This document shows, piece by piece, positions 1 through 13,692 of a stretch of DNA of 64,000 nt. Positions within the stretch are counted from its first letter, which is position 1, and every line of letters begins with the position of its first letter. Origin of the DNA: Actinoallomurus soli. Lineage in GTDB: Bacteria; Actinomycetota; Actinomycetes; Streptosporangiales; Streptosporangiaceae. The position numbers were made by a program, and so were the translations under genes. Below the pieces are notes generated by a model that saw only the letters and a list, made by a program, of their open reading frames with translations, did no database searches and had not been told where the DNA came from. The stretch spans positions 62,001 through 126,000 of the forward strand of contig NZ_JAMXMV010000015.1 of assembly GCF_024055715.1 (NCBI RefSeq). The letters are read 5' to 3'.

Positions 1-1
1 C

Positions 2-730
2 ACGACCGGCCTCATGGCCGGCCTGTTCGCCGCGTTCGCGTACGCGGTCATGCCCGGGCTGCGCGACAGCTCCGACCGCTCGTTCGTCGAGGTGATGCAG
101 AACGTCAACAGGGCGATCCTCAACGGCTGGTTCATGTCCTGCTTCGTCGGCTCGCTGATCCTCCTGATCGGCGCGGCCCTGCTGGCCTGGCGCGGGCACG
201 GACGGCAGGCCCTCCCCTGGATCGTCGCCGCCCTGGTGTTCTACCTGCTGATGTTCCTCATCACCAGCGGGGTGAACGTCCCGCTGAACGACCGGCTCGC
301 CAGGGCCGGCGACCCCCGTCACATCGCCGGCCTCGCCGCCGTACGGCAGCGGTTCGAGGCCCGGTGGGTCACCTGGAACGTCGTGCGCGCGGTCGCGAAC
401 CTCGCCGCCTTCGCCTGCCTCGTCTGGGCGCTGGTCGTGTACGGCGCGCACCGCGACGACGCGCGCCGCGACGGTCCGCGCGCCGCCGGTCTGCCCTCGG
501 CCGCGACGGAGGACGCGGCCTTCACGAGCCGGTCCCGGCCCGCGACGGGTGACGTGGCCTCCGCAGGCCGGTTCCCGGCCGCGGCAGGGGACGTGGCGCG
601 AAAGGCGGGGTACGCGGCGTCCTGGCGCCGCCCGGCGGCCGCCGGCTGTGAGAGGCTGTGCGCGGCGAGCGGACGGTCGGCCGGCGGGCGTCCCGCCGCC
701 TCCTGCGACGCTGCGAGGAGTGGGAGTTGA
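2..730 (+). CDS. DUF1772-family membrane protein, 5'-truncated by window edge
   Basis: The frame is open to the first bases, and residues upstream of the ATG at 14 (T-T-G-L) continue the usual DUF1772 start, so the true start lies outside the window. Membrane segments fall near residues 1-20, 40-65 and 68-90, with a last one near 125-150, and the sequence has the F-x-Y-x-V-M-P-G-L and L-I-T-S-G-V-N-V-P-L-N blocks typical of this anthrone-oxygenase-like fold. The family normally ends about where this protein reaches V-V-Y-G-A-H. Here some 90 extra Ala/Arg/Gly-rich residues follow, including an imperfect 13-residue repeat with a shared GDVA core. The stop overlaps the TTG start of the next gene, suggesting coupled translation. 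The substrate is unknown. Confidence 0.72.
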   Translation, partial: TTGLMAGLFAAFAYAVMPGLRDSSDRSFVEVMQNVNRAILNGWFMSCFVGSLILLIGAALLAWRGHGRQALPWIVAALVFYLLMFLITSGVNVPLNDRLARAGDPRHIAGLAAVRQRFEARWVTWNVVRAVANLAAFACLVWALVVYGAHRDDARRDGPRAAGLPSAATEDAAFTSRSRPATGDVASAGRFPAAAGDVARKAGYAASWRRPAAAGCERLCAASGRSAGGRPAASCDAARSGS

Positions 731-1365
731 CCGGTACGGCGCACGACTTCCTGGCCGTGGCCCGTTCGGCGGCGGGTCTGCTGCGCGACCCGGCGGTGGC
801 CGCCCGGTGGACCGGGCCGAGCGCGCTCCCGGAGTTCCGGGTGAGCGGTCTCGCCGGTCACCTCGCCTACCAGGTCCTCGCCATCCCGCGGATCCTGGCG
901 CGGCCGGTCCCGCACGAGCCGACGATCCCCCTGCTGGAGCACTACGCCCGCGTGGACTGGATCGACGCCGGCCCCGACGCCGACATCAACGTCCGCATCC
1001 GGCGGGGCGGCGAGGAGGCCGCGGCCGGCGGACCGGAGGCGCTGGCGGCGGAGGTGGACGCCGTCGTCGAAAGGTTGACCGGCGACCTCGCGTCCGCGCC
1101 GGACCGGGCGGTGCGCATCCCGTTCTGGGGGCCGTGGTCGCTGACGCTGGACGACATGCTGATCAGCCGGATGATGGAGCTGGTCGTCCACTCGGACGAC
1201 CTCGCGGTCAGCGTGGGGGTCCCGGCGCCGGCGCTCCCGGCGAGCGCCGTCGAGACGGTGGTCGACCTGCTGACCCGCCTGGCCGTGCGCCGGCACGGCC
1301 CGACCGGCGTACTGCGCGCCCTGAGCCGCGCCGAGCGGGCCCCGGCCTCGATCGCGGCGTTCTGA
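727..1365 (+). CDS. Mycothiol-dependent maleylpyruvate isomerase/DinB-fold family protein
   Basis: The 212-residue protein looks like the TIGR03083/MDMPI superfamily: a helical bundle with an early G-H-L-A-Y-Q block and a later M-M-E-L-V-V-H-S-D-D-L block. Those histidines are the usual metal or thiol-cofactor site in this fold. The TTG start at 727 is preferred because GAGGAGTGGGAG lies just upstream and the TTGA overlap with the previous stop implies translational coupling; a longer reading from 658 would run inside the neighbour. Family members use mycothiol, an actinobacterial thiol, in isomerase or S-transferase reactions. The exact substrate cannot be told. Confidence 0.65.
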   Translation: MTGTAHDFLAVARSAAGLLRDPAVAARWTGPSALPEFRVSGLAGHLAYQVLAIPRILARPVPHEPTIPLLEHYARVDWIDAGPDADINVRIRRGGEEAAAGGPEALAAEVDAVVERLTGDLASAPDRAVRIPFWGPWSLTLDDMLISRMMELVVHSDDLAVSVGVPAPALPASAVETVVDLLTRLAVRRHGPTGVLRALSRAERAPASIAAF

Positions 1366-1402
1366 CGGCCGGGCACCGAGCCAGACCAGAGAGGAACCAC
1401 GG

Positions 1403-2113
1403 ATGGACGACGACAAGGAACTCCGGCGGCGCTTCGAGACGCTGACCACCGCGCACGTGGCGGACGCGTGCATCCGCGCCGGCCTGCCCGTGCGCTGCGC
1501 CCCCGCCGCGATGAGCGCCGTGGAGCCCGGCACCCGCCTGCTGGGCCGCGCGCGCCCCGCCCGGCACCTCGGCAGCGTGGACATCTTCCTGGAGGCGTTC
1601 GAGGGCGCGGCGCCCGGCGAGGTGCTGGTGGTCGACAACGACGGGCGTCTCGACGAGGCGTGCGTCGGCGACCTGGTCGTCCTGGAGGCCGCGGCGGCCG
1701 GGCTGACGGGCATCGTGATCTGGGGCCTGCACCGCGACACCGCCGACATCCGGGCGATCGGGCTGCCGGTCTTCAGCCTGGGGGCGATCTCCACCGGCCC
1801 GCTCAGCCTCCGCGACCGCCCGGCGGACGCGCTCACGTCGGCCACCGTCGGCGACCAGACGGTGAGCACCGAGGACCTCGTGCTCGGCGACGACGACGGC
1901 GTGCTGTTCGTCCCGGCCGCCGAGGCCGAGCGCCTCCTGACGATCGCCGAGCGCATCCGCGACACCGAGCGGACGCAGGCCGAGCGGATCCGCGCGGGCG
2001 TCTCCCTGCGCGAGCAGGTCGGCTTCGCCGCCTACCTCACCGCGCGCGGCGAGACGCCGTCGCTGACGTTCCGCGAGCACCTGCGCTCCGTGGGCGGCGC
2101 CATCGAGGAGTGA
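1403..2113 (+). CDS. RraA-like / HMG aldolase-fold protein
   Basis: The 236-residue protein has the RraA/demethylmenaquinone-methyltransferase-like fold. Recognisable blocks are T-T-A-H-V-A-D-A near residue 14, G-E-V-L-V-V-D-N-D-G near 72 and G-x-x-G-I-V-I-W-G-L-H-R-D-T near 105-118. The Arg-Asp pair there is the usual metal/substrate motif of HMG/CHA aldolases. A later D-D-D-G-V-L-F-V-P block is also typical. In actinobacteria such proteins are more often aldolase/decarboxylase-like enzymes of oxo-acid metabolism than RNase E inhibitors. GAGAGGAA lies upstream of the ATG. The W in place of the common D/N before G-L-H-R-D is slightly unusual. Confidence 0.78.
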   Translation: MDDDKELRRRFETLTTAHVADACIRAGLPVRCAPAAMSAVEPGTRLLGRARPARHLGSVDIFLEAFEGAAPGEVLVVDNDGRLDEACVGDLVVLEAAAAGLTGIVIWGLHRDTADIRAIGLPVFSLGAISTGPLSLRDRPADALTSATVGDQTVSTEDLVLGDDDGVLFVPAAEAERLLTIAERIRDTERTQAERIRAGVSLREQVGFAAYLTARGETPSLTFREHLRSVGGAIEE

Positions 2114-2131
2114 GCGAGCGCCCGTCGCTCC
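2111..2131 (+). repeat. Stop-anchored GAGCGAGCG repeat, copy 1
   Basis: The TGA stop of the RraA-like gene runs straight into GAGCGAGCG, followed by a hairpin-forming TCGCTC (arms 2112-2117 and 2125-2130). Three other places in the window show the same anchored arrangement. Confidence 0.55.
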
Positions 2132-2295
2132 GGGGGAATCGGGATGAGGCGGGCCCGGTGGCGATGTTACGGTTCCGGAGCCGGTCGCGGGACTGCGGTG
2201 CGACTTCCGGAACCCGCCTATGAAGCGACGATTCGCAGCTCGTGCCCCCACTCCCCGACCGGCGCTCCCCTCCCTCCCCCCGGAAGGTGCGGACC

Positions 2296-3726
2296 GTGGC
2301 GCGTGCCGAGACCAGCGCGGACTTGATCGCCGCGGAGGACGTCCTGTTGTTCGTCAACGCGGCGATCACGTCGACGGGCCAGCGCGAGTTCCACTCCGGC
2401 GCCGATGAGCAGAGCCTCTCGCTGGACTTCCTTCACGAGTACGTGCTCGGCAACTACCGCGATCTGTACGCCGCGACGCTGGCCCTGGACGTCAACGACC
2501 ACAACGCGGTGCTCATCGCGCGGAATCTCCTGGTCACCGCGGCCGAGGCGAGCGCCGAACAGCGCCGCGCCGAGGGCCGGCTGATCGCCCGGCGGCTCGC
2601 CCTGCTGCCTCCGCAGCGCGTGTACGGCCTGTTCCGGCGGTTGCGCCGTGCCCGGGTCAACAACCGGCGGACGCGGGCGATCATGCGGGACTGGCTGGCG
2701 GCCCGCCCCGACCCGGCGTTCGACGCGGTGAAGTACCGCGCGGCGGTCAAGGATGCGGTCCGGCACGCGCACCTGGCGCCCGCCGGCGAGCTGGGCCCCT
2801 TCCTGTTCACCCCGCACCGGCCGGCCGCGTACCGCACGCCGATCCTGGAGACCTGGCGGCGCGCCCACTACGAGCAGGCCGCGATGTACGACCTGCCGTA
2901 CACCGTGGCGGAGGGGTTCGCGGCCCGGCACGGCGTCCCGCGTGGCGCGTTCCTGGAGCGTGTCGCGCCCCGGCTCACCCGCCTCGAACGGCTGCGCCTG
3001 CAGGAGTCCGCGCGCGGCCTGGGGGCCGAGGCCGTACGGGCCGACCTGGGAACGATGCCGCTGACCCGGCTGGCGTCGTACGTGCTCGGCCTCTCTCTGG
3101 AGGACCGGCGGAACCGCCGCGACGAGCTCACGGCGGCGCTGCGCACGGCGGCCCGCCGTGCGGCGGGCGAGGATGCGGGCCGCTGGGGGACCGTGGCCGC
3201 GGTGCTCGACGACAGCTTCTCGGCGTACGGCTCGGGTCAGAAGCGCCGCCGGCCGCTCGCCGTCGCGCTGGCCTGTCACTTCCTGCTGGAGGCGCTGGCC
3301 GCGGAGTACACGCCACTGTGGCTGTCCGGCCGCGCCGACGCGCTGTCGGTCCGGCCGTACGGGCCGACGCCGCTCGGCGAGCGGATCCTCGACGCGCTGG
3401 AGCTCGGGACCGCTCGCCTCGTCATCGTCTCCGACGGTTGGGACAACGCGCCGCCGGGTCTGGCCGGTGAGGTGCTGCGGATCTGGCGCACCCGGCTCGA
3501 CCCGTCCCGCGCCTGTGCCATCGTCCACCTCAACCCGGTGTACGACGCCGCCGACTTCGACGTGCGGCGCCTCGCGCCGACCGTCCCGACCGCCGGCGTC
3601 CGGGACGCCGAGAACCTGGTCGCACTGGTCGAACTCGCGCAGTTCGCGGAGGGACGCACGGGACTGCCGGAGCTGCGCGCCCACCTGGCACGGCGCGTCG
3701 AGGACTTCCTGCGGGAGGGCCCATGA
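2296..3726 (+). CDS. Helical-repeat plus von Willebrand A protein (Ro60/TROVE-like layout), partner of the ARPP-like gene
   Basis: The 476-residue protein starts at GTG 2296 behind GGAAGG with eight bases of spacing. Residues about 1-290 are all-helical and Arg-rich, like the HEAT-type ring of Ro60/TROVE proteins. Residues about 295-470 look like a von Willebrand A domain: V-A-A-V-L-D-D-S-F-S-A-Y fits the MIDAS D-x-S-x-S metal site, and L-V-I-V-S-D-G-W-D-N fits the later strand. I infer an RNA- or protein-binding scaffold from the layout; no catalytic residues are visible. Its TGA overlaps the ATG of a possible longer downstream reading, so the two genes form a tight operon. A dedicated TROVE assignment needs a profile search. 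Confidence 0.6.
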   Translation: MARAETSADLIAAEDVLLFVNAAITSTGQREFHSGADEQSLSLDFLHEYVLGNYRDLYAATLALDVNDHNAVLIARNLLVTAAEASAEQRRAEGRLIARRLALLPPQRVYGLFRRLRRARVNNRRTRAIMRDWLAARPDPAFDAVKYRAAVKDAVRHAHLAPAGELGPFLFTPHRPAAYRTPILETWRRAHYEQAAMYDLPYTVAEGFAARHGVPRGAFLERVAPRLTRLERLRLQESARGLGAEAVRADLGTMPLTRLASYVLGLSLEDRRNRRDELTAALRTAARRAAGEDAGRWGTVAAVLDDSFSAYGSGQKRRRPLAVALACHFLLEALAAEYTPLWLSGRADALSVRPYGPTPLGERILDALELGTARLVIVSDGWDNAPPGLAGEVLRIWRTRLDPSRACAIVHLNPVYDAADFDVRRLAPTVPTAGVRDAENLVALVELAQFAEGRTGLPELRAHLARRVEDFLREGP

Positions 3727-3745
3727 CCGAGCGAAGCGAGGGAAA
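3724..3745 (+). repeat. Stop-anchored GAGCGAAGCGAG repeat, copy 2
   Basis: The TGA stop of the vWA gene continues into CCGAGCGAAGCGAGGG. The element fills the junction between the two cassette genes and creates a spurious in-frame ATG at 3723 ahead of the real start. Confidence 0.5.
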
Positions 3746-3791
3746 TCGATCGGCACGGCCCCTTGGTCATGGGGCCGGCGAAGGAGGTCCC

Positions 3792-4958
3792 ATGACCAAG
3801 GTGACGCTGAACGGCCTCACGAGCCGCCCGTCGCAGGTGTGGGGCGGGGTGCGGCTCGTGCCGCTGATCCGGGAAGAGCCGATCGAGGACCTGCGGCTGG
3901 ACGCCCGGCTCTACGACGCCGACGCCGGGGTGGTCACGGTGGACCCGCGGACGGTCTACTGCTCCTACATCCCGCACGGTTATGTGGCGACGTGGGCGGA
4001 CGACGGCGCGCCGGCCGCGGCGTACGGCACCCAGCTGCGCGACGCCGCCGACCGCGACCGCGCGCCCAGGCGGATGCCGCTGCGCTTCCACCGCCGGATG
4101 GCACGGCGGCTCGACAAGAACCGGCTGCGCTTCCTCCCCCTGCACGTGGCGCTGGAGGGCTACCTGGCGCTGCACTTCGGTGGTCCCACGTTCGCCTGGA
4201 AGGAGTGGTCACGGGAGGCGATCCGCCGTGGCCTGTCGCCACGCGCGGAGGAGGCGTACACGGGCGGCGCGGTCCGGGGCCTGGCCGACGCCCTGCGGGT
4301 GTTCGAAATCTACCCGGGCCAGTGCGGCGTCCTCGTCTACGCCGCGGACGCGCTCGCCGCCGCCTTCGTGGTGCCGCATCCCGCCGACTACCGCGCACTT
4401 CACCCGACGCTGATCCACGACCTGTACGGCGAACTGATCTACCACTACGCCATGCTGGGCGGCCCGGTGCCCGCCTTCGGCGCCCGCGTCGACGACACGG
4501 CCGTGCGTTCGCTCGGCGACCTGCGGGCCGCCGCACGGGCGCAGCGGGACGAGTGGGCCGCCTTTCACGAGGACGTCATGGCGGGCGGGCTGCTGGACGG
4601 CGACTACACCCGCGAGTACGTCCAGGAGGTCGGGCCGTACCGCCTGTCCCGGTTGATGCCGTCCTTCGAGCGGCATCGGGAGAACCACCTCGGTGAGCTC
4701 ATCGACGACGACGCCGGGCGGCTCGCGTACCTCAAGACGTTCCGGCTGTCGGAGAACCAGGTCCGGCGCGGTCACCTGCTCACCCGGCTTGCCGCCGGCG
4801 ACTGGAGCCTTTCAACGACGGCGGCCGCCATGGGCGTCACCGAGCCCGAGCTCGTCCGGCGGATCGAGGCGGCCGGCTTCGGCTACCTCCTCCGCCAGGA
4901 CGTCCGCGACCACTACCGCGCCCGAGCCCGTGGGGACGCGGCACGGCGCGGGCGCTAG
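3792..4958 (+). CDS. ARPP-2-like domain protein with C-terminal Fis-type HTH
   Basis: The start is ATG 3792, placed by AAGGAGG at 3781-3787; the in-frame ATG 3723 lies in a repeat. Of 388 residues, the first 300 resemble, from memory, the ARPP-2 family (ARG and Rhodanese-Phosphatase-superfamily-associated Protein), proposed by comparative genomics to act in NAD/ADP-ribose or RNA-linked conflict systems. Supporting blocks are L-T-S-R-P-S-Q-V-W-G-G-V-R-L-V-P-L-I-R-E-E-P near residue 5, F-A-W-K-E-W near 138 and E-I-Y-P-G-Q-C-G-V near 172. The last 60 residues form a Fis-like helix-turn-helix (A-A-M-G-V-T-E-P-E-L-V-R-R-I). No biochemical role is known to me. It follows the vWA gene directly and its TAG shares CTAG with the facing kup stop. 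Confidence 0.55.
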   Translation: MTKVTLNGLTSRPSQVWGGVRLVPLIREEPIEDLRLDARLYDADAGVVTVDPRTVYCSYIPHGYVATWADDGAPAAAYGTQLRDAADRDRAPRRMPLRFHRRMARRLDKNRLRFLPLHVALEGYLALHFGGPTFAWKEWSREAIRRGLSPRAEEAYTGGAVRGLADALRVFEIYPGQCGVLVYAADALAAAFVVPHPADYRALHPTLIHDLYGELIYHYAMLGGPVPAFGARVDDTAVRSLGDLRAAARAQRDEWAAFHEDVMAGGLLDGDYTREYVQEVGPYRLSRLMPSFERHRENHLGELIDDDAGRLAYLKTFRLSENQVRRGHLLTRLAAGDWSLSTTAAAMGVTEPELVRRIEAAGFGYLLRQDVRDHYRARARGDAARRGR

Positions 4959-6904
4959 AACTCGACCTGGGTGCCCATGACGACGGTGCGGTCCTCCGGG
5001 AGACGGAAGTACTCGGCGGGGCTGGCGGCGTTGTTGGCCAGGGTGAGGAACACCCGCTTGCGCCACCGGCTCATGCCGGGCTCCCGGGTGAGGCGCAGGG
5101 AGCCGCGCGACAGGAAGTACGAGGCGTGGTCGGGGTCGATGTCGAGCAGTTCGTCCCGGCCGTCCGCCTGGGACGCGGCGAGCCGCAGCGCCCCGGGGAT
5201 GTCCTGGTCGTCCTGGAACCCGTACGTGACGGTGAGGTGCACGATCCCGTCGTCCCGGTAGCCCAGGTCGTCGACGCTGATCCGCTGTTCCCGCGGGACG
5301 TGGGGGATGGTGTCGTACGTCACCGAGACGATCACGACGTGCTCGTGCACGACGTGGTTGTGGTCCAGGTTCGCCCGCAGCGCCAGGGGCGTCGTCTCCT
5401 TGCCCGGGTGCGGGAACACCGCGGTGCCGGGCACACGCGGCACCTTGGTCATGCGCAGCTTCCGCACGAGTTCCGGCAGCGCGCCCTCCTTGTCGACCCG
5501 GCGAGCCGTGACGATCTCGCGCCCCCGTTCCCACGTCTTCATGACGGTGAACACGGAGACCGCGATCAGCAGGGGCAGCCAGCCGCCGTGCGTGACCTTC
5601 GTCAGGTTGGCCGCGAAGTAGGTGATCTCGGCGCCGCCGATCACGACACCGATCACCACGAGCCGCCACATCGGCCACCGCCACTCCGCCCGCGCGATGA
5701 CCAGGAAGAGGATCGTCGTGATGATCAGTGTCCCGGTGACCGCCACGCCGTACGCCGTCGCCAGGTGCTCGGACGACTTGAAACCGAACATCAGCGCCAG
5801 CACGCCGATGAACAGGATCCAGTTGACCGCGGGGACGTACACCTGGCCGACCTCTCGCGGCGAGGTGTGGCGGATCCGCAGGTACGGCAGGAACCCGAGC
5901 CGTACGGCCTGGCGCGACACCGAGAACGCCCCGGTGATCACGGCCTGGGAGGCGATCACCGTCGCCGCGGTCGCGAGGATCACCATCGGCAGCCGCGCCC
6001 AGCCCGGCAGCAGCAGGAAGAACGGGTTCGCCACGCTCTTGGGATCCCGGAGGATCAGCGCGCCCTGGCCCAGGTAGTTCAGCGTCAGCGCCGGGAACAC
6101 CACGCCGAACCACGCGCGCCGGATCGGCCGCCGGCCGAAGTGCCCCATGTCGGCGTACAGCGCCTCGGCGCCCGTGATCGCCAGGACCACCGCGCCCATC
6201 GCGATGAAGGCGACGTACGGGTGCCGCAGCACGAAGGCTCCCGCGTAGGTCGGCGACAGCCCGAGCAGGATGCCCGGCTTCCGTACCACCTCGCCGACAC
6301 CCGCGAGGGCGATCGCGACGAACCAGACCACCATGACCGGCCCGAACAGGATGCCGACACGGTGCGTGCCCCAGCGCTGCGCGAGGAACAGCAGGGTCAG
6401 GATCGCCGCCGCGATCGGCAGGACCAGATGGGACACGGCGGGGCTGGAGACCTTGAGGCCCTCCACCGCCGACAGCACCGAGATCGCGGGCGTGATCACG
6501 CTGTCGCCGTAGAACAGCGAGGCGCCGAACACGCCGAGGGCCATCGCCACCACGGCCTTGCCGCGCACGCCGCCGAGCACCCGCCGCACCAGGGCGGCGA
6601 GCGCCATCACGCCGCCTTCGCCCTCGTTGTCGGCGCGCAGGATGAAGATCACGTACTTCACCGACACGATCAGCGTGACCGACCAGAACACCATGGAGAT
6701 CACGCCGTAGACGTCGCCGCTCGTCGGGCGGACGGCCCCGTTGTCGATGCGGAACACCGTCTGGAGGGAGTACAGCGGGCTGGTGCCGATGTCGCCGTAG
6801 ACGACCCCGAGGGCACCCAGCATCAGCGCCAGGAGCCCGGACCGGTGCTCGGACGAGCCCGGCCCGGACGTGGACGCGGTGTCCCGCACCGCAGAATCGG
6901 CCAT
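4955..6904 (-). CDS. kup: KUP-family potassium uptake permease
   Basis: The 649-residue protein has the KUP signature V-V-Y-G-D-I-G-T-S-P-L-Y near residues 31-42, followed by about twelve hydrophobic segments. A soluble C-terminal domain of about 190 residues starts near T-A-R-R-V-D-K-E-G, as in HAK/KUP/KT transporters. It imports K+ with protons across the cell membrane. ATG 6904 is preferred over the GTG at 6937 because the mature family starts shortly before the glycine-rich signature. The gene lies downstream of the OYE enzyme on the same strand with a 74-base gap, and its stop overlaps the ARPP-like stop by four bases. I saw no c-di-AMP riboswitch in the short upstream gap. Confidence 0.95.
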   Translation of the reverse strand: MADSAVRDTASTSGPGSSEHRSGLLALMLGALGVVYGDIGTSPLYSLQTVFRIDNGAVRPTSGDVYGVISMVFWSVTLIVSVKYVIFILRADNEGEGGVMALAALVRRVLGGVRGKAVVAMALGVFGASLFYGDSVITPAISVLSAVEGLKVSSPAVSHLVLPIAAAILTLLFLAQRWGTHRVGILFGPVMVVWFVAIALAGVGEVVRKPGILLGLSPTYAGAFVLRHPYVAFIAMGAVVLAITGAEALYADMGHFGRRPIRRAWFGVVFPALTLNYLGQGALILRDPKSVANPFFLLLPGWARLPMVILATAATVIASQAVITGAFSVSRQAVRLGFLPYLRIRHTSPREVGQVYVPAVNWILFIGVLALMFGFKSSEHLATAYGVAVTGTLIITTILFLVIARAEWRWPMWRLVVIGVVIGGAEITYFAANLTKVTHGGWLPLLIAVSVFTVMKTWERGREIVTARRVDKEGALPELVRKLRMTKVPRVPGTAVFPHPGKETTPLALRANLDHNHVVHEHVVIVSVTYDTIPHVPREQRISVDDLGYRDDGIVHLTVTYGFQDDQDIPGALRLAASQADGRDELLDIDPDHASYFLSRGSLRLTREPGMSRWRKRVFLTLANNAASPAEYFRLPEDRTVVMGTQVEF

Positions 6905-6978
6905 GAGGCAATACCTACCTGACGGCGATCCGGCCACACGCAGCCGGGTCCGGGATGTGCCCTGACCTGGGACGGGCG

Positions 6979-8052
6979 TCAGGCCGTGTGCTGGTAGGCC
7001 GGGTAGGTCAGATACCCCGCGTCGCCGCCCTGGTAGTACGTGGCCTCGTCGACGGGGGCGATCGGGAGTCCGAGGCGCAGTCGCTCGACCAGGTCGGGGT
7101 TGGCGATGAAGGCGCGCCCGAAGCTGATCAGCTCGGCGCCGAGCCCGAGCCAGTGGTCGGCGTCCTCCCGGCTCGTCTGCTTCGGTCCCATGGGAAGGAC
7201 CGGGTTCATGATCAGGGTTCCCGGCCAGGCACGGCGCAGTGCGACCAGCACCTCTTCCTCGGCGGTGGCCTCCAGGTGGACGTACGCGAGGTCCAGGCGG
7301 GCCAGCTCGGTCAGCAGCGCGGTGTAGAGCTCGGGAACATCGGTCTCCTCGACGCCCCAGAACGTCCCGCCCGGGGAGAGCCGGATGCCGGTCCGGGCCG
7401 CGCCGACGGCCTCGACGGTCGCGGCCACCGCCTCGACCGCGAACCGGATCCGGTTCGCGACCGAGCCTCCGTACCGGTCCGTGCGCAGGTTCGCGTTGGA
7501 CGAGAGGAACTGGGAGATCAGGTAGCCGTTGGCGCCGTGCAGCTCCACGCCGTCGAACCCGGCCTCGACGGCCCGGCGGGCGGCCTCGGCGTACGACCGG
7601 GCGTGCTCGGGCACCTCGGCGGTCTCCAGGGCGCGTGGCATGGGCGCGGGCTGCGGGCCGGTCGGCGTGAACACGTCGCCGACGGCGGGCACGGCCGAGG
7701 GCCCGACCGGCTGCAGGCCGGTGGTGTCGGAGTGCGAGACCCGGCCGCCGTGCATGATCTGGGCGAAGATCCGCCCGCCGTTGGCGTGCACGGCGTCGGT
7801 CACGGGCCGCCAGGAGGCGACCTGCTCATCGGTGTGCAGGCCCGGCGTGCCGGGGTTGGACTGGCCGATCAGGCTCGGCTGCACGCCCTCGCTGACGATC
7901 AGTCCGGCGGTCGCCCGCTGGGCGTAGTACGTGGCCATCGACGGTGTCGCCAGGCCGCCGGCGGCGGCCCGGACCCGCGTCATCGGCGCCATCACGAGCC
8001 GGTTCGGCAGCGTCAGGTCACCGAGCCGGTAGCTGCTGAAAAGGGTCGTCAT
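6979..8052 (-). CDS. Old yellow enzyme-family alkene reductase (FMN, NAD(P)H)
   Basis: The 357-residue protein is a full-length TIM-barrel OYE. Visible blocks are P-N-R-L-V-M-A-P-M-T-R near residue 16, Q-I-M-H-G-G-R-V-S near 98, the active-site H-G-A-N-G-Y-L-I-S-Q-F-L near 172-183, and R-T-D-x-Y-G-G-S near 191. The H-x-x-N pair holds the substrate carbonyl or nitro group. Members reduce activated alkenes, nitroesters or quinones. GGAGGAG lies eight bases before the ATG. It is divergent from a MerR regulator over a 117-base gap that contains the likely operator, so I infer induction by electrophilic or oxidative compounds. The substrate cannot be told. Confidence 0.92.
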   Translation of the reverse strand: MTTLFSSYRLGDLTLPNRLVMAPMTRVRAAAGGLATPSMATYYAQRATAGLIVSEGVQPSLIGQSNPGTPGLHTDEQVASWRPVTDAVHANGGRIFAQIMHGGRVSHSDTTGLQPVGPSAVPAVGDVFTPTGPQPAPMPRALETAEVPEHARSYAEAARRAVEAGFDGVELHGANGYLISQFLSSNANLRTDRYGGSVANRIRFAVEAVAATVEAVGAARTGIRLSPGGTFWGVEETDVPELYTALLTELARLDLAYVHLEATAEEEVLVALRRAWPGTLIMNPVLPMGPKQTSREDADHWLGLGAELISFGRAFIANPDLVERLRLGLPIAPVDEATYYQGGDAGYLTYPAYQHTA

Positions 8053-8109
8053 CTCAGGACTCCTCCGCTCCGCCGTGCCCGGATCTCGGGCACGGCGATA
8101 CGCTAAAAC

Positions 8110-8125
8110 CTGACATTGACGTCAG
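8110..8125. promoter_or_regulatory. Likely MerR operator between OYE and merR genes
   Basis: CTGAC at 8110-8114 and GTCAG at 8121-8125 form an inverted repeat around ATTGAC. The site is central in the divergent gap, as expected for a MerR-family activator bound between promoter elements. Confidence 0.5.
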
Positions 8126-8169
8126 AGGCAAGCGTTGTGGCGCGAGTCACAACCGGGGAGGACGACGAC

Positions 8170-8547
8170 ATGCGCATCGGGGAGCTCGCCGCACGGACCG
8201 GCGTCAGTGTCCGGTCCCTGCGCTACTACGAGGAGCAGGGCCTGCTCACCAGCGTCCGCAGCGCCAGCGGGCAACGGCACTACACGGAGGACGACGTCGA
8301 GCGGGTGGGGTTCATCCAGCGGATGTACACCGCGGGCCTGTCCAGCCGCACCATCGCCGAGGTGCTGCCCTGCGCCGACGCGCCGAGCGAGGAGCACTCC
8401 GACGCCGCGCTGGAGCGGATGGCCCAGGAGCGCGACCGGCTGTCGGAGCACATCACCGAGCTCATCCGCGCGCGGGACGCGCTCGACGACCTGGTGGCCA
8501 TCGCACGAGCACACCGCGAAACGCTGCGCGCGCCGGCGGCCCGCTGA
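8170..8547 (+). CDS. MerR-family transcriptional regulator
   Basis: The 125-residue protein begins M-R-I-G-E-L-A-A-R-T-G-V-S-V-R-S-L-R-Y-Y-E-E-Q-G-L, the MerR winged helix, followed by a coiled coil near residues 82-115. I chose ATG 8170 because GGGGAGG precedes it and the motif starts there. The single Cys near residue 69 is not in a metal-binding CxxC context, so organic or redox effectors are more likely than metals; this is inference. It is divergent from the OYE gene and its stop abuts the facing HAD gene. Confidence 0.88.
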   Translation: MRIGELAARTGVSVRSLRYYEEQGLLTSVRSASGQRHYTEDDVERVGFIQRMYTAGLSSRTIAEVLPCADAPSEEHSDAALERMAQERDRLSEHITELIRARDALDDLVAIARAHRETLRAPAAR

Positions 8548-9297
8548 TCACTCCGGCGCCGGCTGATCGATGAGCCCCGGCAACGCACGCAGCGACGTGA
8601 TCTCATGGCGGGGATCCGGGTCCCCGGGCCGGCGCGCCGCACCGGCCCGGTTGAGCCAGACACCGGCGCCCAACCGGGCGTTCCGGGCGCCGAGGACATC
8701 GGTGGCGAGGCTGTCGCCGACGTGCCACACCGACTGCGGCCCGACGCCCAACCGGCCGAGGGCGAGCTCGAAGATCGCCTGATCCGGCTTCGCGACGCCG
8801 ATCTCGGCGGACACGACGATCTCGTCGAAGTGGCGGTCGAGCCCCGTCGCCGTCAGCTTGTCCCGCTGGGCGTCGGCGGGGCCGTTGGTGACGACGGCCA
8901 GGGCGTCGACGCGCTCCCGGAGGGCGACGAGGACCTCCAGGACATCGTCGAACAGCCGGTAACCGCCCTTACGGTCGCGCACGTAGAGGTCGAGCGCGCG
9001 TTCGGCGAGGAGCTCGCTCTCGCACCCGCACGCCGAGAGGGCGTGCCGCCAGAGCTCTCCCCAGATGGCGCGGGCCTCAGGGGATCCACTCGGCGAGCGC
9101 GCGATGGTCCCCTCGGTCCCTCCCAGGTGGCCGGCGTAGGCACGGGTGTACGCGTCGAACAGCCGATCGGCGTGGAGCTCCGCCGCATCGGCGGTCAGCG
9201 CCGCGCACACCCGGCGTACGGTCGCGTGCCACGCCGCCCGGTCGTAGTCGATGAGCGTCGCGTCGAGGTCGAAGAACACCGCCCGGATCGGCCCCAT
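8548..9297 (-). CDS. HAD-superfamily hydrolase (YjjG/phosphoglycolate phosphatase-like)
   Basis: The 249-residue protein has all four HAD motifs: F-F-D-L-D-A-T-L near residue 8 (D-x-D nucleophile pair kept, Ala where Asn or Gly is common), V-V-T-N-G near 136, the motif III Lys in I-G-V-A-K-P-D near 169, and H-V-G-D-S-L-A-T-D near 195. A helical C1 cap sits between motifs I and II. It should dephosphorylate a small phosphorylated metabolite in the cytoplasm; the substrate is unknown. It may be transcribed with the SDR upstream (33-base gap). Confidence 0.87.
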   Translation of the reverse strand: MGPIRAVFFDLDATLIDYDRAAWHATVRRVCAALTADAAELHADRLFDAYTRAYAGHLGGTEGTIARSPSGSPEARAIWGELWRHALSACGCESELLAERALDLYVRDRKGGYRLFDDVLEVLVALRERVDALAVVTNGPADAQRDKLTATGLDRHFDEIVVSAEIGVAKPDQAIFELALGRLGVGPQSVWHVGDSLATDVLGARNARLGAGVWLNRAGAARRPGDPDPRHEITSLRALPGLIDQPAPE

Positions 9298-9330
9298 CCC
9301 GGCATCCTAGGAGGGATTCGGGAACTCCGG

Positions 9331-10242
9331 TCAGCCCTGCTGGAAGTAGTGCCCCTGCGCCAGATCCTCGAGGAGTCCCGGATGCACCGGCTCCCACCCG
9401 AGCACCTTGCGCGTCACCTCGCTGGAGGTCGGGTTGTCCACTCCCACGGCGGGGCCGAGGAAGGCGAACCGCTCGGCGGCGTCCGACGCGGCGATGCTCG
9501 TCGTGGGGACGCCGACGCCGCGCCCGATGGCCGCCGCGATGTCGCGGAAGGGGATCCCCTCGTCGGCGACCGCGTGCAGCCGGCTTCCGGCCGGCGCGCT
9601 CTCCAGGGCGAGGCGGTACACCCGCGCCGCGTCGAGCGTGTGCACCGAGGGCCACCGGTTGGCCCCGTCCTCCACGTATCCCGACACGCCGGACTGACGG
9701 GCGATGCCGATCAAGATGTGCACGAAGCCGTGCCGGTCGAGCGTGCTGTGCACGATCGGGGGCAGCCGGACGACGGAGGACCGTACGCCGTGCTCGGCGA
9801 GTCCGGTCACGAAGTTCTCCGCGTCGACCCGTGGACCGCTGTCGGCGAAATCGGCCTCGGTGCCCGGTCGCCCGGTGATGCCCGCCGAGATGAGCATGAG
9901 CGTTCCGGAGGTGGTGACGAACGGCTTGCCCGTCCCTTCCAGCCCTGAGGCGAGCGCCTTGATGGCGGCGAGGTCGGCGGCGACCGCAGCGGCCATATCG
10001 CCGGCCCCCATCAGGTCGTGCTTGAAAGCGAGGTGGATGACGCCGTCGGCCGCCGCGGCGGCCTCGCGCAGCCCGTCGAGATCGTCCAGGTCGCCGCGCC
10101 GCACCTCGGCGCCGGCGGCCGTGAGCGCCTCGGCCGAGCCGTCCGAACGCGCCAGCCCCACGACCTGATGCCCCGCCTGCAGCAGCTCCGGCACGACCGC
10201 CGAGCCCATGTGCCCCGACGCTCCGGTCACGAAAACACGCAT
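9331..10242 (-). CDS. NAD-dependent epimerase/dehydratase-type extended SDR
   Basis: The 303-residue protein begins M-R-V-F-V-T-G-A-S-G-H-M-G, the extended-SDR G-x-x-G-x-x-G cofactor loop, with R-G-D-L-D-D near residue 50 and D-G-V-I-H-L-A near 67. The usual YxxxK is not evident, placing it among atypical SDRs. ATG 10242 is supported by GAGGAGGG just upstream; a longer reading from 10272 lacks a site. It is divergent from a TetR gene over a paired operator, so I infer that TetR represses it and that an NAD(P)-linked small-molecule substrate is the inducer. Confidence 0.82.
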   Translation of the reverse strand: MRVFVTGASGHMGSAVVPELLQAGHQVVGLARSDGSAEALTAAGAEVRRGDLDDLDGLREAAAAADGVIHLAFKHDLMGAGDMAAAVAADLAAIKALASGLEGTGKPFVTTSGTLMLISAGITGRPGTEADFADSGPRVDAENFVTGLAEHGVRSSVVRLPPIVHSTLDRHGFVHILIGIARQSGVSGYVEDGANRWPSVHTLDAARVYRLALESAPAGSRLHAVADEGIPFRDIAAAIGRGVGVPTTSIAASDAAERFAFLGPAVGVDNPTSSEVTRKVLGWEPVHPGLLEDLAQGHYFQQG

Positions 10243-10264
10243 GGTGAGCCCTCCTCGGGCGAGT

Positions 10265-10315
10265 GATGTCACCTGGTGCCATCACCATAGCAGAGGCATG
10301 ACACCAGGTGACATC
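10265..10315. promoter_or_regulatory. Paired TetR operator between SDR and tetR
   Basis: Two 17-base palindromes, ATGTCACCTGGTGCCAT (10266-10282) and ATGACACCAGGTGACAT (10298-10314), both fit ATGnCACCnGGTGnCAT. Their outer 14 bases also make a perfect inverted repeat with each other. They cover the gap in front of both divergent genes. Confidence 0.75.
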
Positions 10316-10330
10316 GACTAGTCTTCTCCC

Positions 10331-10897
10331 ATGGGGAGATGGCGGCCGGACGCGCGGGCGCGGCTGCAGGAGGCGGCCATGGCCCTCTACGGCGAGCGCG
10401 GGTACGACGAGACGACCGTCGCGGAGATCGCGGAACGCGCGGGGCTGACGAAACGCACGTTCTTCCGCTACTTCACGGACAAGCGCGAGGTCCTGTTCTG
10501 GAACTCGGATCTCCTGGAGCAGCAGATGGTGGCCGCCATCGAGGCCGCCCCTACGTCCGCCCCGCCTCTCGACCTGATCGGCGCGGCGCTGGACGCCGCC
10601 GCCGTCCGGTTCGAAGAGAGCCGTGAGTTCGCCGGCCTGCGGCACCGGATCGTCGCCTCGAGTCCCGAGCTCCAGGAACGCGAGCTGATCAAGGCCAGGT
10701 CGATGGCCACCGCCATGACGCGGGCACTGTGCGCCCGGGGAGCCGGCGACACCGCCGCCGCCCTCACCGCCCTCATGTGCACGACCGTCATGCACGTCGC
10801 CTTCGAGCAGTGGGTCGACGACCCGGACCGGACGCCGTTCCAGCAGCTCGCCAAGGACGCCCTGGCGCAGCTCCGGGAGCTCACCGCCGCGGGCTGA
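10331..10897 (+). CDS. TetR-family regulator of the adjacent SDR
   Basis: The 188-residue protein has a canonical N-terminal HTH (Y-G-E-R-G-Y-D-E-T-T-V-A-E-I-A-E-R-A-G-L-T-K-R-T-F-F-R, near residues 20-46) and an all-helical ligand domain. No ribosome site is visible within 12 bases of the ATG, and the start lies 16 bases from the operator, so a leaderless transcript is possible. It probably represses itself and the divergent SDR. Its end faces the paaR-like gene with a five-base gap. Confidence 0.88.
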   Translation: MGRWRPDARARLQEAAMALYGERGYDETTVAEIAERAGLTKRTFFRYFTDKREVLFWNSDLLEQQMVAAIEAAPTSAPPLDLIGAALDAAAVRFEESREFAGLRHRIVASSPELQERELIKARSMATAMTRALCARGAGDTAAALTALMCTTVMHVAFEQWVDDPDRTPFQQLAKDALAQLRELTAAG

Positions 10898-10902
10898 TCC
10901 CG

Positions 10903-11577
10903 TCAGCCGGTCGGGCGGGTGCGGAGGCCGTCGAAGGCGACCTTGGCGACGGCGTCCGCGAGGTCGGGGCCGCCGATGTGGCCCTGCGGGCGGTACCACT
11001 CGATCAGCGAGTTGACCATGCCGAACAGCAGACGGGCGGTGGTGGCCGGATCGACGTCGCTCCGCAGGTCGCCGTCGGCGACGGCGTCGGCGACGAGCCC
11101 GGCGACGATGCGGTCGAACTCCCGCCGCCGTTCGAGGGCGTCCCGCTCGACCTGGGTGTTGCCGCGCACCCGCAGCAGGAGCGTGACGAAGGGCAGCCGG
11201 CCCACCAGGACCGTCACACTGCCCCGTACGAGGTGCTCCAGGCGGTCGACCGCCCGCCCGGGGACGGAGTCCAGCTCGTCGGCCAGCGCGAAGAGCCCGT
11301 CGAGGGCGCGATCGACGGCCAGCCGCAGCAGCTCCTGCTTGCCCGGGACGTGGTGGTAGATCGCGGCCTTGGTGACGCCGAGCTCGCGAGCGAGGTCGTC
11401 CATGCTCGTGCCGTCGAAGCCGCGCTCGTTGAACAGGGCGACCGCGACCCGCAGCAGGGACTCCCGGTCATGGCCGGGCCGGCCGCGCCTGGTCCGCCGC
11501 GCTCCGGGCGGCGTGCCCGACGGTGCGGCCGATGGCGTGGTCGCACGGTCAGCCGGTCGTCCCCTTCCCTCCGCCAT
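10903..11577 (-). CDS. paaR: PaaR-like TetR-family repressor of the phenylacetate operon
   Basis: The 224-residue protein has a basic N-terminal tail, then a TetR HTH near residues 43-72 ([29 protein letters not shown]). ATG 11577 is the sensible start; the frame stays open far upstream but only as antisense to paaZ. It is divergent from paaZABCDE over 63 bases containing a likely operator. TetR-type PaaR proteins of actinobacteria respond to phenylacetyl-CoA, so the assignment rests on family and position. Confidence 0.8.
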
Positions 11578-11598
11578 GGTCGCACGGTAGCATGAATT

Positions 11599-11616
11599 AC
11601 CTACCATTCGGTCAGT
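11599..11616. promoter_or_regulatory. Candidate PaaR operator
   Basis: ACCTACCATTCGGTCAGT is an imperfect inverted repeat (ACnnACC against CGGTnAGT) placed between paaR and paaZ. It resembles, from memory, the ACTnACCG/CGGTnAGT arms described for actinobacterial PaaR. Confidence 0.5.
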
Positions 11617-11640
11617 TAATCGATCCTGGAGGCCGGCTCC

Positions 11641-13692
11641 ATGACCGCACTGCACAGCTACGTCGGCGGCCGGTGGCAGGCGCCGACGGGCGAGGGCATC
11701 CCGCTGCACGACGCGGCGACCGGCGAGGAGATCGCCCGCGTCTCCACGGCGGGGATCGACATGGCCGCCGCCCTGGAGTACGGCCGCCGCGTCGGCGGTC
11801 CGGCGCTGCGCGAGCTCACCTTCCACCAGCGCGCCGCCCTGCTGAAGGCGCTGGCCTCGCACATGCGCGAGCACCGCGAGGAGCTGTACGCGCTGTCGGC
11901 CCGGACCGGCGCCACGCTGAACGACTCGCGCTTCGACGTCGACGGCGGCATCGGCGTGCTGTTCGCGTACGCGAGCCGGGGCCGCCGCGAGCTGCCGAAC
12001 GACACCGTCTACGTCGAGGGCCCGGTCGAGCCGCTCGGCAAGGGCGGCACCTTCGTCGGGCAGCACGTCTGCACCCCGCTGCGCGGCGTCGCCGTCCAGA
12101 TCAACGCCTTCAACTTCCCCGTGTGGGGGCCGCTGGAGAAGCTCGCCCCCGCGTTCCTGGCCGGGATGCCCAGCCTGATCAAGCCGGCGGAGCAGACCGC
12201 GTACCTCACCGAGCGGCTGGTCCGGCTGATCGTCGACTCCGGCCTGCTGCCGGAGGGCGCCGTGCAGCTCGTCTGCGGCCCGCCCGGCGACCTGCTCGAC
12301 CACGTGACCGACCAGGACCTGGTCGCGTTCACCGGCTCGGCCGCCACCGCGCGCAAGCTCCGCGCGCACCCGGCGATCGTCCGCGAGGCGGTGCGGTTCA
12401 CCGCCGAGGCCGACTCGCTGAACTGCTCGATCCTCGGGCCGGACGCCCGGCCCGGCACGCCCGAGTTCGACCTGTACGTCAAGCAGCTCGTCACCGAGAT
12501 GACGGTCAAGGCCGGGCAGAAGTGCACCGCGATCCGGCGGGCCCTCGTCCCGGCCGAGCTGATGGACGACGTCGCGGCGGCGGTCCGCGAGCGGCTGGCC
12601 AAGGTCACCGTCGGCGACCCGTCGCGCGAGGACGTGCGGATGGGCGCCCTGGCGAGCCTCGACCAGCGGGAGGAGGTCCGCCGGGCGGTCAAGGCCCTGC
12701 GCGGCGCCGCGACATTGATCTTCGGCGACCCCGACCACGTCGAGGTGGTCGGCGCCGACGCCGACCGGGGCGCGTTCGTCTCGCCCATGCTGCTGCGCTG
12801 CGACGACCCGGACCGCACCGAGCCGCACGAGGTGGAGGCGTTCGGGCCGGTGTCGACGCTCCTGCCGTACGACTCGGCGGAGCGGGCGATCGAGCTGGCC
12901 GCGCGCGGCCGGGGCAGCCTCGCCGGGTCGGTGGTCACCGCCGACACCGGCTTCGCCCGGGAGATCGTGCTCGGCCTCGCTCCGTGGCACGGCCGGATCC
13001 TCGTCCTCGATCGCGACGACGCGAAGGAGTCCACCGGGCACGGCTCGCCGCTGCCCGGCCTCGTCCACGGCGGGCCCGGCCGCGCGGGCGGCGGCGAGGA
13101 GATGGGCGGCCTGCGCGGCGTGCTGCACCACATGCAGCGCACCGCCGTCCAGGCCGACCCGGCGACGCTGAGCGCGGTGACCGGCCGCTGGGTCGCCGGC
13201 GCGCCGCGGCGTACGCACGTGTCCGGCACCGGCGAGGGCGTGCACCCGTTCCGCAAGTCCCTGGCGGAGCTGCGGGTCGGCGATGCGGTGACCGCCGGGC
13301 CCCGCACGGTCACGCTGGAGGACATCGACCACTTCGCGGAGTTCACCGGCGACACGTTCTACGCGCACACCGACGAGGAGGCGGCGAAGGCGAACCCGCT
13401 GTTCGGCGGGATCGTCGCGCACGGCTACCTGGTGGTGTCGCTGGCCGCGGGGCTGTTCGTCTCCCCCGAGCCGGGGCCCGTCCTGGCCAACTACGGCCTG
13501 GAGAACCTCCGGTTCCTCACTCCCGTCAAGCCGGGCGACGAGCTGACCGTGACGCTGACCGCCAAGCAGATCACCCCACGGGCGAACGCCGACTACGGCG
13601 AGGTGCGCTGGGACGCCGACGTGACCAACCAGACCGGCGAGTCGGTGGCCAAGTACGACGTGCTGACCCTGGTGGCGAAGGAGGCCTCATGA
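11641..13692 (+). CDS. paaZ: PaaZ: oxepin-CoA hydrolase / 3-oxo-5,6-didehydrosuberyl-CoA semialdehyde dehydrogenase
   Basis: The 683-residue fusion has an N-terminal aldehyde dehydrogenase (residues about 1-520) and a C-terminal MaoC-like hot-dog hydratase (about 535-683). The general base Glu256 (F-T-A-E-A-D-S) and nucleophile Cys295 (A-G-Q-K-C-T-A) are present. The hydratase has F[13 protein letters not shown], with the usual Asp and His. It opens the oxepin-CoA ring and oxidises the resulting aldehyde in phenylacetate breakdown. GGAGG precedes the ATG and the stop overlaps paaA (ATGA). It is the first gene of the operon under the PaaR-like repressor. Confidence 0.96.

Follow-up and report, generated by a model that had tools for sequence, protein, structure and literature searches.

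What does a Ro60-like protein do in a bacterium when its gene is directly followed by one for an ARPP-2 protein? Ro60 and its Y RNAs are widespread, they are autoantigens in lupus and Sjogren syndrome, and their role in bacteria is little understood. The locus examined here lies in a 64,000-nt stretch of Actinoallomurus soli DNA (the window) from a 9.4 Mb genome. Both reading frames named by the original prediction were present, and its observation of a vWA-type gene directly followed by an ARPP-2-like gene was confirmed:

2296..3726, + strand: gene for the Ro60-like protein (476 aa; helical ring domain approximately residues 1-293, vWA domain approximately residues 296-450, full MIDAS)
3792..4958, + strand: ARPP-2 gene (388 aa; C-terminal Fis/NtrC-type HTH at approximately residues 318-363, 4743-4880)

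The likely starts are GTG at 2296 and ATG at 3792, each with a purine-rich ribosome-binding stretch ahead of it, and the host genome contains one match to each gene. An inverted repeat, GGCCCC...GGGGCC (3757-3776), lies in the 65-nt spacer that separates the two. The mir-324 match at 3756-3806 reached 23.8, far from its gathering score of 70, and was put down to chance.

Conservation and fold of the gene pair

When 84,980 species genomes were scanned with ARPP-2 patterns, 79 loci emerged, many of them in Streptomyces, with further representatives in Kitasatospora, Saccharothrix, Kibdelosporangium, Nocardia, Rhodococcus and other genera and one in an uncultured proteobacterium. A Ro-like coding sequence, broken in at least five loci, was located directly upstream of ARPP-2 on the same strand in 79/79. 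The gap was at most 100 nt in 78/79 loci; stop and start overlapped by 4 nt in 59, and 6 had a 64-nt spacer with no overlap. Three Nostoc plasmids also carried the pair, one of them (L090) with an apparently broken Ro frame. On two of the three, XisH and XisI are found between the genes (L088:7213-7952 and L090:7213-7952). Gene coupling is thus strongly supported in Actinobacteria, the Nostoc plasmids and one proteobacterial bin. No third operon gene recurred beyond the pair among the 25 largest neighbour clusters from the 79 loci; this clustering used rough gene calls (which retrieved Ro at 60 loci and ARPP-2 at 21) with products judged by eye, and a small or variable third gene could escape it.

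Searching from the Ro side gave matches in 16/100 relatives at 17 places, and ARPP-2 adjoined 15 of these; of the other two matches, one was weak and partial and one was a fragment of 46 residues. Of 396 genomes drawn evenly from the phylum, 2 contained the Ro-like gene and 3 had ARPP-2 above the cut-off, namely the same two and genome G369, where the ARPP-2 match is partial. This partial match (L004:1396-1819) is apparently a decaying remnant, in a genome with no Ro-like or RNA match. Four more of the 396 had weak ARPP-2 matches resembling ARPP-1. Two alignments were made from the 79 loci: A3 left out five for broken Ro-like frames (L031, L063, L071, L081, L083), and A4 comprised the window and 74 loci, lacking L032, L063, L079, L081 and L083 and including the truncated L082.

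Fold comparison revealed a Ro fold across approximately 400 residues of the Ro60-like protein, with a HEAT-like helical ring and a vWA domain. The predicted MIDAS was borne out, with DxSxS...T...D kept in 75/75 Ro-like proteins. Sequence searches with the gene against Pfam, NCBIfam, PADLOC, PDB and PHROGs returned nothing significant. None of the 75 members matched PF05731 (TROVE) or PF25045 (vWA_Ro60) at E <= 1, and PF05731 had no match in the host genome at E <= 0.001; canonical TROVE proteins from other actinobacteria do match the Pfam TROVE model. Hence the anticipated Ro60/TROVE-like ring plus vWA held at the level of fold, but neither TROVE nor any other Pfam family was matched, and because TROVE and vWA_Ro60 are unmatched we call the protein Ro60-like rather than a TROVE member. 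Comparison of the Ro-like profile with canonical actinobacterial TROVE by hhalign gave a weak alignment (probability 21%, E 0.001), and a more diverse set gave a probability of 46% (E 0.00021). The alignment pairs H159 of the window protein with the canonical TROVE His; by eye, the equivalent residue is Leu or Trp in the Ro proteins of an Alkaliphilus plasmid (L091), a phage (L092) and two other phage-like contigs. The helical ring and the vWA domain with its MIDAS are common to the cassette protein and to Ro60/Rsr (Xenopus and human Ro60, Deinococcus radiodurans Rsr, Salmonella Rsr-YrlA), whereas the missing Pfam matches and the ARPP-2 partner gene set it apart. One genome (G107, L130) encodes the Ro-like/ARPP-2/RNA cassette plus a canonical TROVE-matching protein, and thus the two branches coexist.

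The assignment of ARPP-2 with a C-terminal Fis-type HTH also stood: the protein matched PF22549 with 442.8 bits (gathering score 27), and the HTH was found by fold. ARPP-2 had no significant PDB match by sequence or by whole fold, and because its model was middling (pLDDT 71) we interpreted it for the HTH only. ARPP-2 is a relative of ARPP-1 (PF20208; ARG/rhodanese-phosphatase systems), with profiles that align over 115 columns (E 7e-8). Unlike ARPP-1, it has no cysteine at the column where that of ARPP-1 is conserved (12/12), and it has invariant residues of its own, the C-terminal HTH and a Ro-like partner. To our knowledge, no activity has been tested for any ARPP protein.

A structured RNA ahead of the pair

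Alignment of the regions upstream of the pair in relatives revealed one block far more conserved than its flanks. In the window, this block and the element ahead of it are as follows:

2165..2173, + strand: extended -10 promoter element TG-n-TACGGT (TANNNT hexamer at 2168-2173, 6 nt ahead of the RNA; putative promoter)
2180..2263, + strand: Y-RNA-like structured RNA, 84 nt, found by nhmmer, covariation and covariance model (CM)

Using the window block, nhmmer detected the RNA in 79/79 loci and 3/3 Nostoc plasmids and missed it only in L091 and L092. The weakest match was in the proteobacterium (L082, E 0.15), and matches in L063 and L071 were partial. The RNA was present at a single place in its own genome and scored 102 bits on the + strand and 23 bits on the - strand with covariance model R1.

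The RNA has an 8-bp terminal stem, a bulged C at nt 9 (2188), 4 bp of the GGGA/UCCC type and an internal loop, beyond which lie a 7-bp second helix and an apical domain with a 3-bp hairpin. The window RNA folded with a z of -2.86 (3/200 shuffles as stable). RNAalifold predicted 22 base pairs from 74 rows, with 99.4% of cells paired. Double-sided changes were found in 12 of these 22 pairs (54 cells), compared with 2.8 pairs and 9.9 cells in shuffles (0/500 as high); the structure and these counts come from one alignment, and the shuffles ignore relatedness. Sliding the pairing partners by 1-3 columns destroyed this signal. The terminal helix (12 bp, interrupted) was paired in 99.9% of cells and contained 6 pairs with double-sided changes; the window's own stem carries such a change. 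The stem sequence was GCCGGCCG in most actinobacteria, ACUGUUUG in Nostoc and GUGGGGCG in the proteobacterium with pairing retained, and despite these differences the core GGGACU...GACUUCCG was unchanged across phyla. The 74-row alignment (A9) omits 9/83 elements, six of them close to kept rows (L043, L045, L050, L066, L070, L073) and three partial or disrupted (L063, L071, L083); alignment A10 comprises 49 of its rows. A plain DNA palindrome was considered and rejected. G-U pairs are frequent on the + strand (UG in 55/74 at one pair, GU in 29/74 at another), and the complementary strand could not form them, which argues for an RNA.

The unpaired base between the 8 bp and the 4 bp was C in 66/74 rows and U in 8/74, and its numbering as nt 9 takes the first base of the stem as the 5' end of the RNA. 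A bulged base 9 in the Y RNA stem is reported as a key Ro60 contact (PMC4030889; PMC11277228), and the bulged cytosine as retained in bacterial Y RNAs (PMC4030889). Base-paired ends, the bulged nucleotide 9 and a gene beside that of a Ro protein are thus shared with Y RNAs. Unlike the Y RNAs of known Ro60/Rsr systems, the cassette RNA reached the gathering score of no Rfam 15 family. No tRNA-like domain of the bacterial YrlA type was recognised in the window or in six other actinobacterial loci. Rfam gave two matches in window positions 1-12000, both far below gathering, and only three tRNAs in 11 other loci, all in the phage.

TANNNT was located 5-9 nt ahead of the RNA stem in 70/74 aligned loci, at exactly 6 nt in 61 and with TGn in 53, compared with 3.9% in shuffled upstream sequence. 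The four rows that lacked it were the three Nostoc rows and the proteobacterial row. Most rows had no good match to a -35 element (best 2-3 of 6 bases in 61/70).

The RNA was found within -30 to 150 nt of the called Ro-like start in 73/79 loci. Four of the other six have broken Ro frames. In the remaining two, both with intact frames, the RNA is found 2.8 kb (L024:1445-1559) and 1.4 kb (L026:2979-3093) ahead of the gene. The covariance model detected the RNA in 14/100 relatives, exactly those whose Ro-like match was near full-length (in G400 interrupted by an in-frame stop), and always within 50 nt of that match; it found none in relatives that lacked a Ro-like match. Two Ro-matching relatives had no RNA, one with the Ro gene cut by a contig end (G452) and one with a weak partial Ro match (G405). 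Among the 396 phylum genomes, the RNA occurred in the same two as the Ro-like gene, under stricter filters that may lose weak matches. Distance matrices from 43 loci were correlated for Ro and ARPP (r 0.865), Ro and RNA (r 0.699) and ARPP and RNA (r 0.606), with 0/999 permutations as high in each case. Such correlation is also expected from common descent; it therefore demonstrates co-inheritance rather than contact.

Gain, loss and mobile counterparts

A genus-mate (G399, L135) has an empty site at the equivalent position. Window 540-2113 aligned to it at 90.7% and window 4953-6424 at 92.5%, with 21 bp between the two blocks compared with 2839 in the window:

2114..4952, no strand assigned: presence/absence unit comprising the RNA, the Ro-like gene and the ARPP-2 gene

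Since the flanks are contiguous in G399, all three components are absent there, and no Ro-like or RNA match was found elsewhere in that genome. The cassette thus moves or is lost as a unit. A downstream gene resembling glutamine synthetase by eye is common to 34/79 loci, and this shared neighbour indicates a resident locus in many Streptomyces.

Counterparts with ARPP-1 in place of ARPP-2 were found on mobile replicons. On the Alkaliphilus (Clostridia) plasmid, the Ro-like gene is followed by one for a protein that matches both PF20208 (1.2e-22) and PF22549 (2e-8); a TerD family gene is located upstream of this pair (L091:3406-4173). The Ro-like and ARPP-1 genes are 8 nt apart in the 462-kb uncultured phage L092, and 4 and 14 nt apart in the IMG/VR contigs L146 and L147; searching IMG/VR with the actinobacterial proteins retrieved no relatives. 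In all four plasmid and phage pairs, the partner matched PF20208 above the cut-off and the Ro-like protein carried DxSxS and an SDG motif. At 321-345 aa, the Clostridia and phage partners are shorter than ARPP-2, and in the two that were aligned no segment matched the C-terminal HTH.

The covariance model found no RNA in L091 or L092, and a stem-bulge scan there gave counts at the level of shuffles. L146 (2490-3430) and L147 (2740-3445) contain, upstream of the Ro gene, a stretch of approximately 1 kb with repeated units, in which a short motif occurs in 4 and 3 copies, respectively. A script that describes the element as stem, GACU, second helix, variable part, second helix and stem counted five in L146 and two in L147, compared with means of 0.05 and 0.025 (maximum 1) in shuffles of the same stretches. 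The script was written after reading both contigs, which are its discovery set, and therefore these counts are a description rather than an independent test. It counted no elements in the 4.9-6.0 kb that follow the Ro-like gene at four loci, and none in the L091 and L092 gaps. The window, the proteobacterial locus and two Nostoc loci also gave zero; their stems have a bulge that the script does not describe. Among the five L146 elements, that at 3082-3172 is close to a perfect hairpin and might be of another kind. Rfam tRNA matches were located inside phage elements at L146:2694-2797 (partial) and L147:3128-3252 (full model); ARAGORN called one tRNA in L147 (3151-3225, anticodon tta) and none in L146. 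These inserts could be ordinary phage tRNA genes.

Proposed mechanism and its alternatives

The locus as a whole is, in our judgement, probably best explained as a mobile, self-contained Ro ribonucleoprotein cassette composed of a Y-RNA-like RNA, a Ro-like protein and ARPP-2. The computed evidence for it comprises the fold, the linkage of genes and RNA, the structure and covariation of the RNA, co-occurrence, and gain or loss as a unit. We infer that the RNA is made and that it binds the Ro-like protein. Transcription from one promoter would start at approximately the first base of the 84-nt RNA and continue into the Ro-like and ARPP-2 genes. The terminal stem with its bulged nt 9 would dock on the outside of the Ro-like ring, tethering or gating it as Y RNAs do for Ro60/Rsr; we propose this by analogy with Deinococcus, in which a Y RNA is reported to tether Rsr to PNPase (PMC7790460; PMC8394870). 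The ring and the metal-binding vWA domain could then handle structured or damaged RNA. ARPP-2 would be a dedicated partner, whose beta-rich domain most likely recognises a ribose-containing ligand or an RNA end delivered by the particle and may also process such a ribose-containing end. Its HTH may couple ligand recognition to DNA, probably the cassette's own promoter. An RNA-handling role, put forward from the proteins alone, is made more credible by the Y-RNA-like RNA beside their genes, an element that the original prediction had missed.

The RNA might instead act in cis, as a 5' leader through which translation of the Ro-like gene is controlled (perhaps by autogenous binding), and not as a free Y RNA. 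It is on the same strand and ends approximately 20-36 nt ahead of the start codon in 57/83 loci, and a leader bound by the Ro-like protein would also fit most of the data; however, the two loci where it is distant from an intact Ro frame, the arrays of several related elements in the two phage-like contigs and the match of the nt-9 bulge to Y RNAs make this improbable. An ordinary Ro-Y RNA particle could also be the working part, with ARPP-2 acting only as the operon's transcription factor. This would account for the Fis/NtrC-type HTH and the conserved promoter-like element, but the shorter ARPP-1 partners keep the Ro pairing, two of them with no matching HTH, and thus the ARPP core rather than the HTH is the constant part; we consider this explanation doubtful, if less so than the other two alternatives.

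The remaining alternative is anti-phage defence, in which a Ro-Y particle would sense damaged or foreign RNA and ARPP-2, as the effector, would act on NAD or on molecules of the ADP-ribose type. The patchy distribution (16/100 relatives), gain and loss as a unit, carriage on Nostoc plasmids and the phage-borne counterparts are all consistent with it, and comparative genomics has assigned ARPP-1 to ARG-centred conflict systems (PMC9503650). Against this, the best PADLOC match for the Ro-like protein had an E of 0.21 and ARPP-2 had none, the glutamine-synthetase-like neighbour marks a resident locus in many Streptomyces, and the published proposal concerns ARPP-1, whose cysteine ARPP-2 lacks. 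The NAD/ADP-ribose or defence role first suggested for the pair therefore found no backing in these searches of the two proteins; defence draws its support from distribution and mobility, and we rate it as unlikely, ahead of the leader.

The self-contained Ro cassette suggests a new branch within the Ro machinery that handles RNA in humans and bacteria. Ro ribonucleoproteins are already known; the Ro protein branch, invisible to current Pfam models, and the recurrent ARPP partner appear to be new, and the structured RNA is below every Rfam 15 gathering score. The literature search, which covered sources other than subscription papers and most preprints, returned no report on a Ro-ARPP pair among the matches listed. 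Ro proteins thereby acquire a recurrent partner in four bacterial phyla (one from a metagenome bin only) and phages, and ARPP proteins gain a concrete RNA-protein setting in which their activity can be examined. With two genes and one RNA, the cassette is small enough for expression and reconstitution.

More tentatively, these loci may belong to a previously undescribed class of mobile Ro-Y RNA-ARPP ribonucleoproteins common to actinobacterial chromosomes, cyanobacterial and clostridial plasmids and large phages. Cells would use a single Y-like RNA, and the phage variant arrays, some with tRNA-like inserts, might serve, in a conflict over damaged tRNA, as decoys, adaptors or sensors, and ARPP would process the captured ends. 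TROVE proteins of jumbo phages have been proposed to act with a tRNA-like RNA partner (PMC7824862). Those too are Ro-type proteins in large phages, but the accessible part of that report mentions no ARPP partner, and the phage Ro-like proteins found here match no Pfam TROVE model. By eye, an apparent AAA+ ATPase gene followed by one for a vWA protein is located downstream in both phage-like contigs (L146:8128-10622 and L147:7872-10580), resembling the MoxR-vWA pair reported in jumbo phages (PMC7824862).
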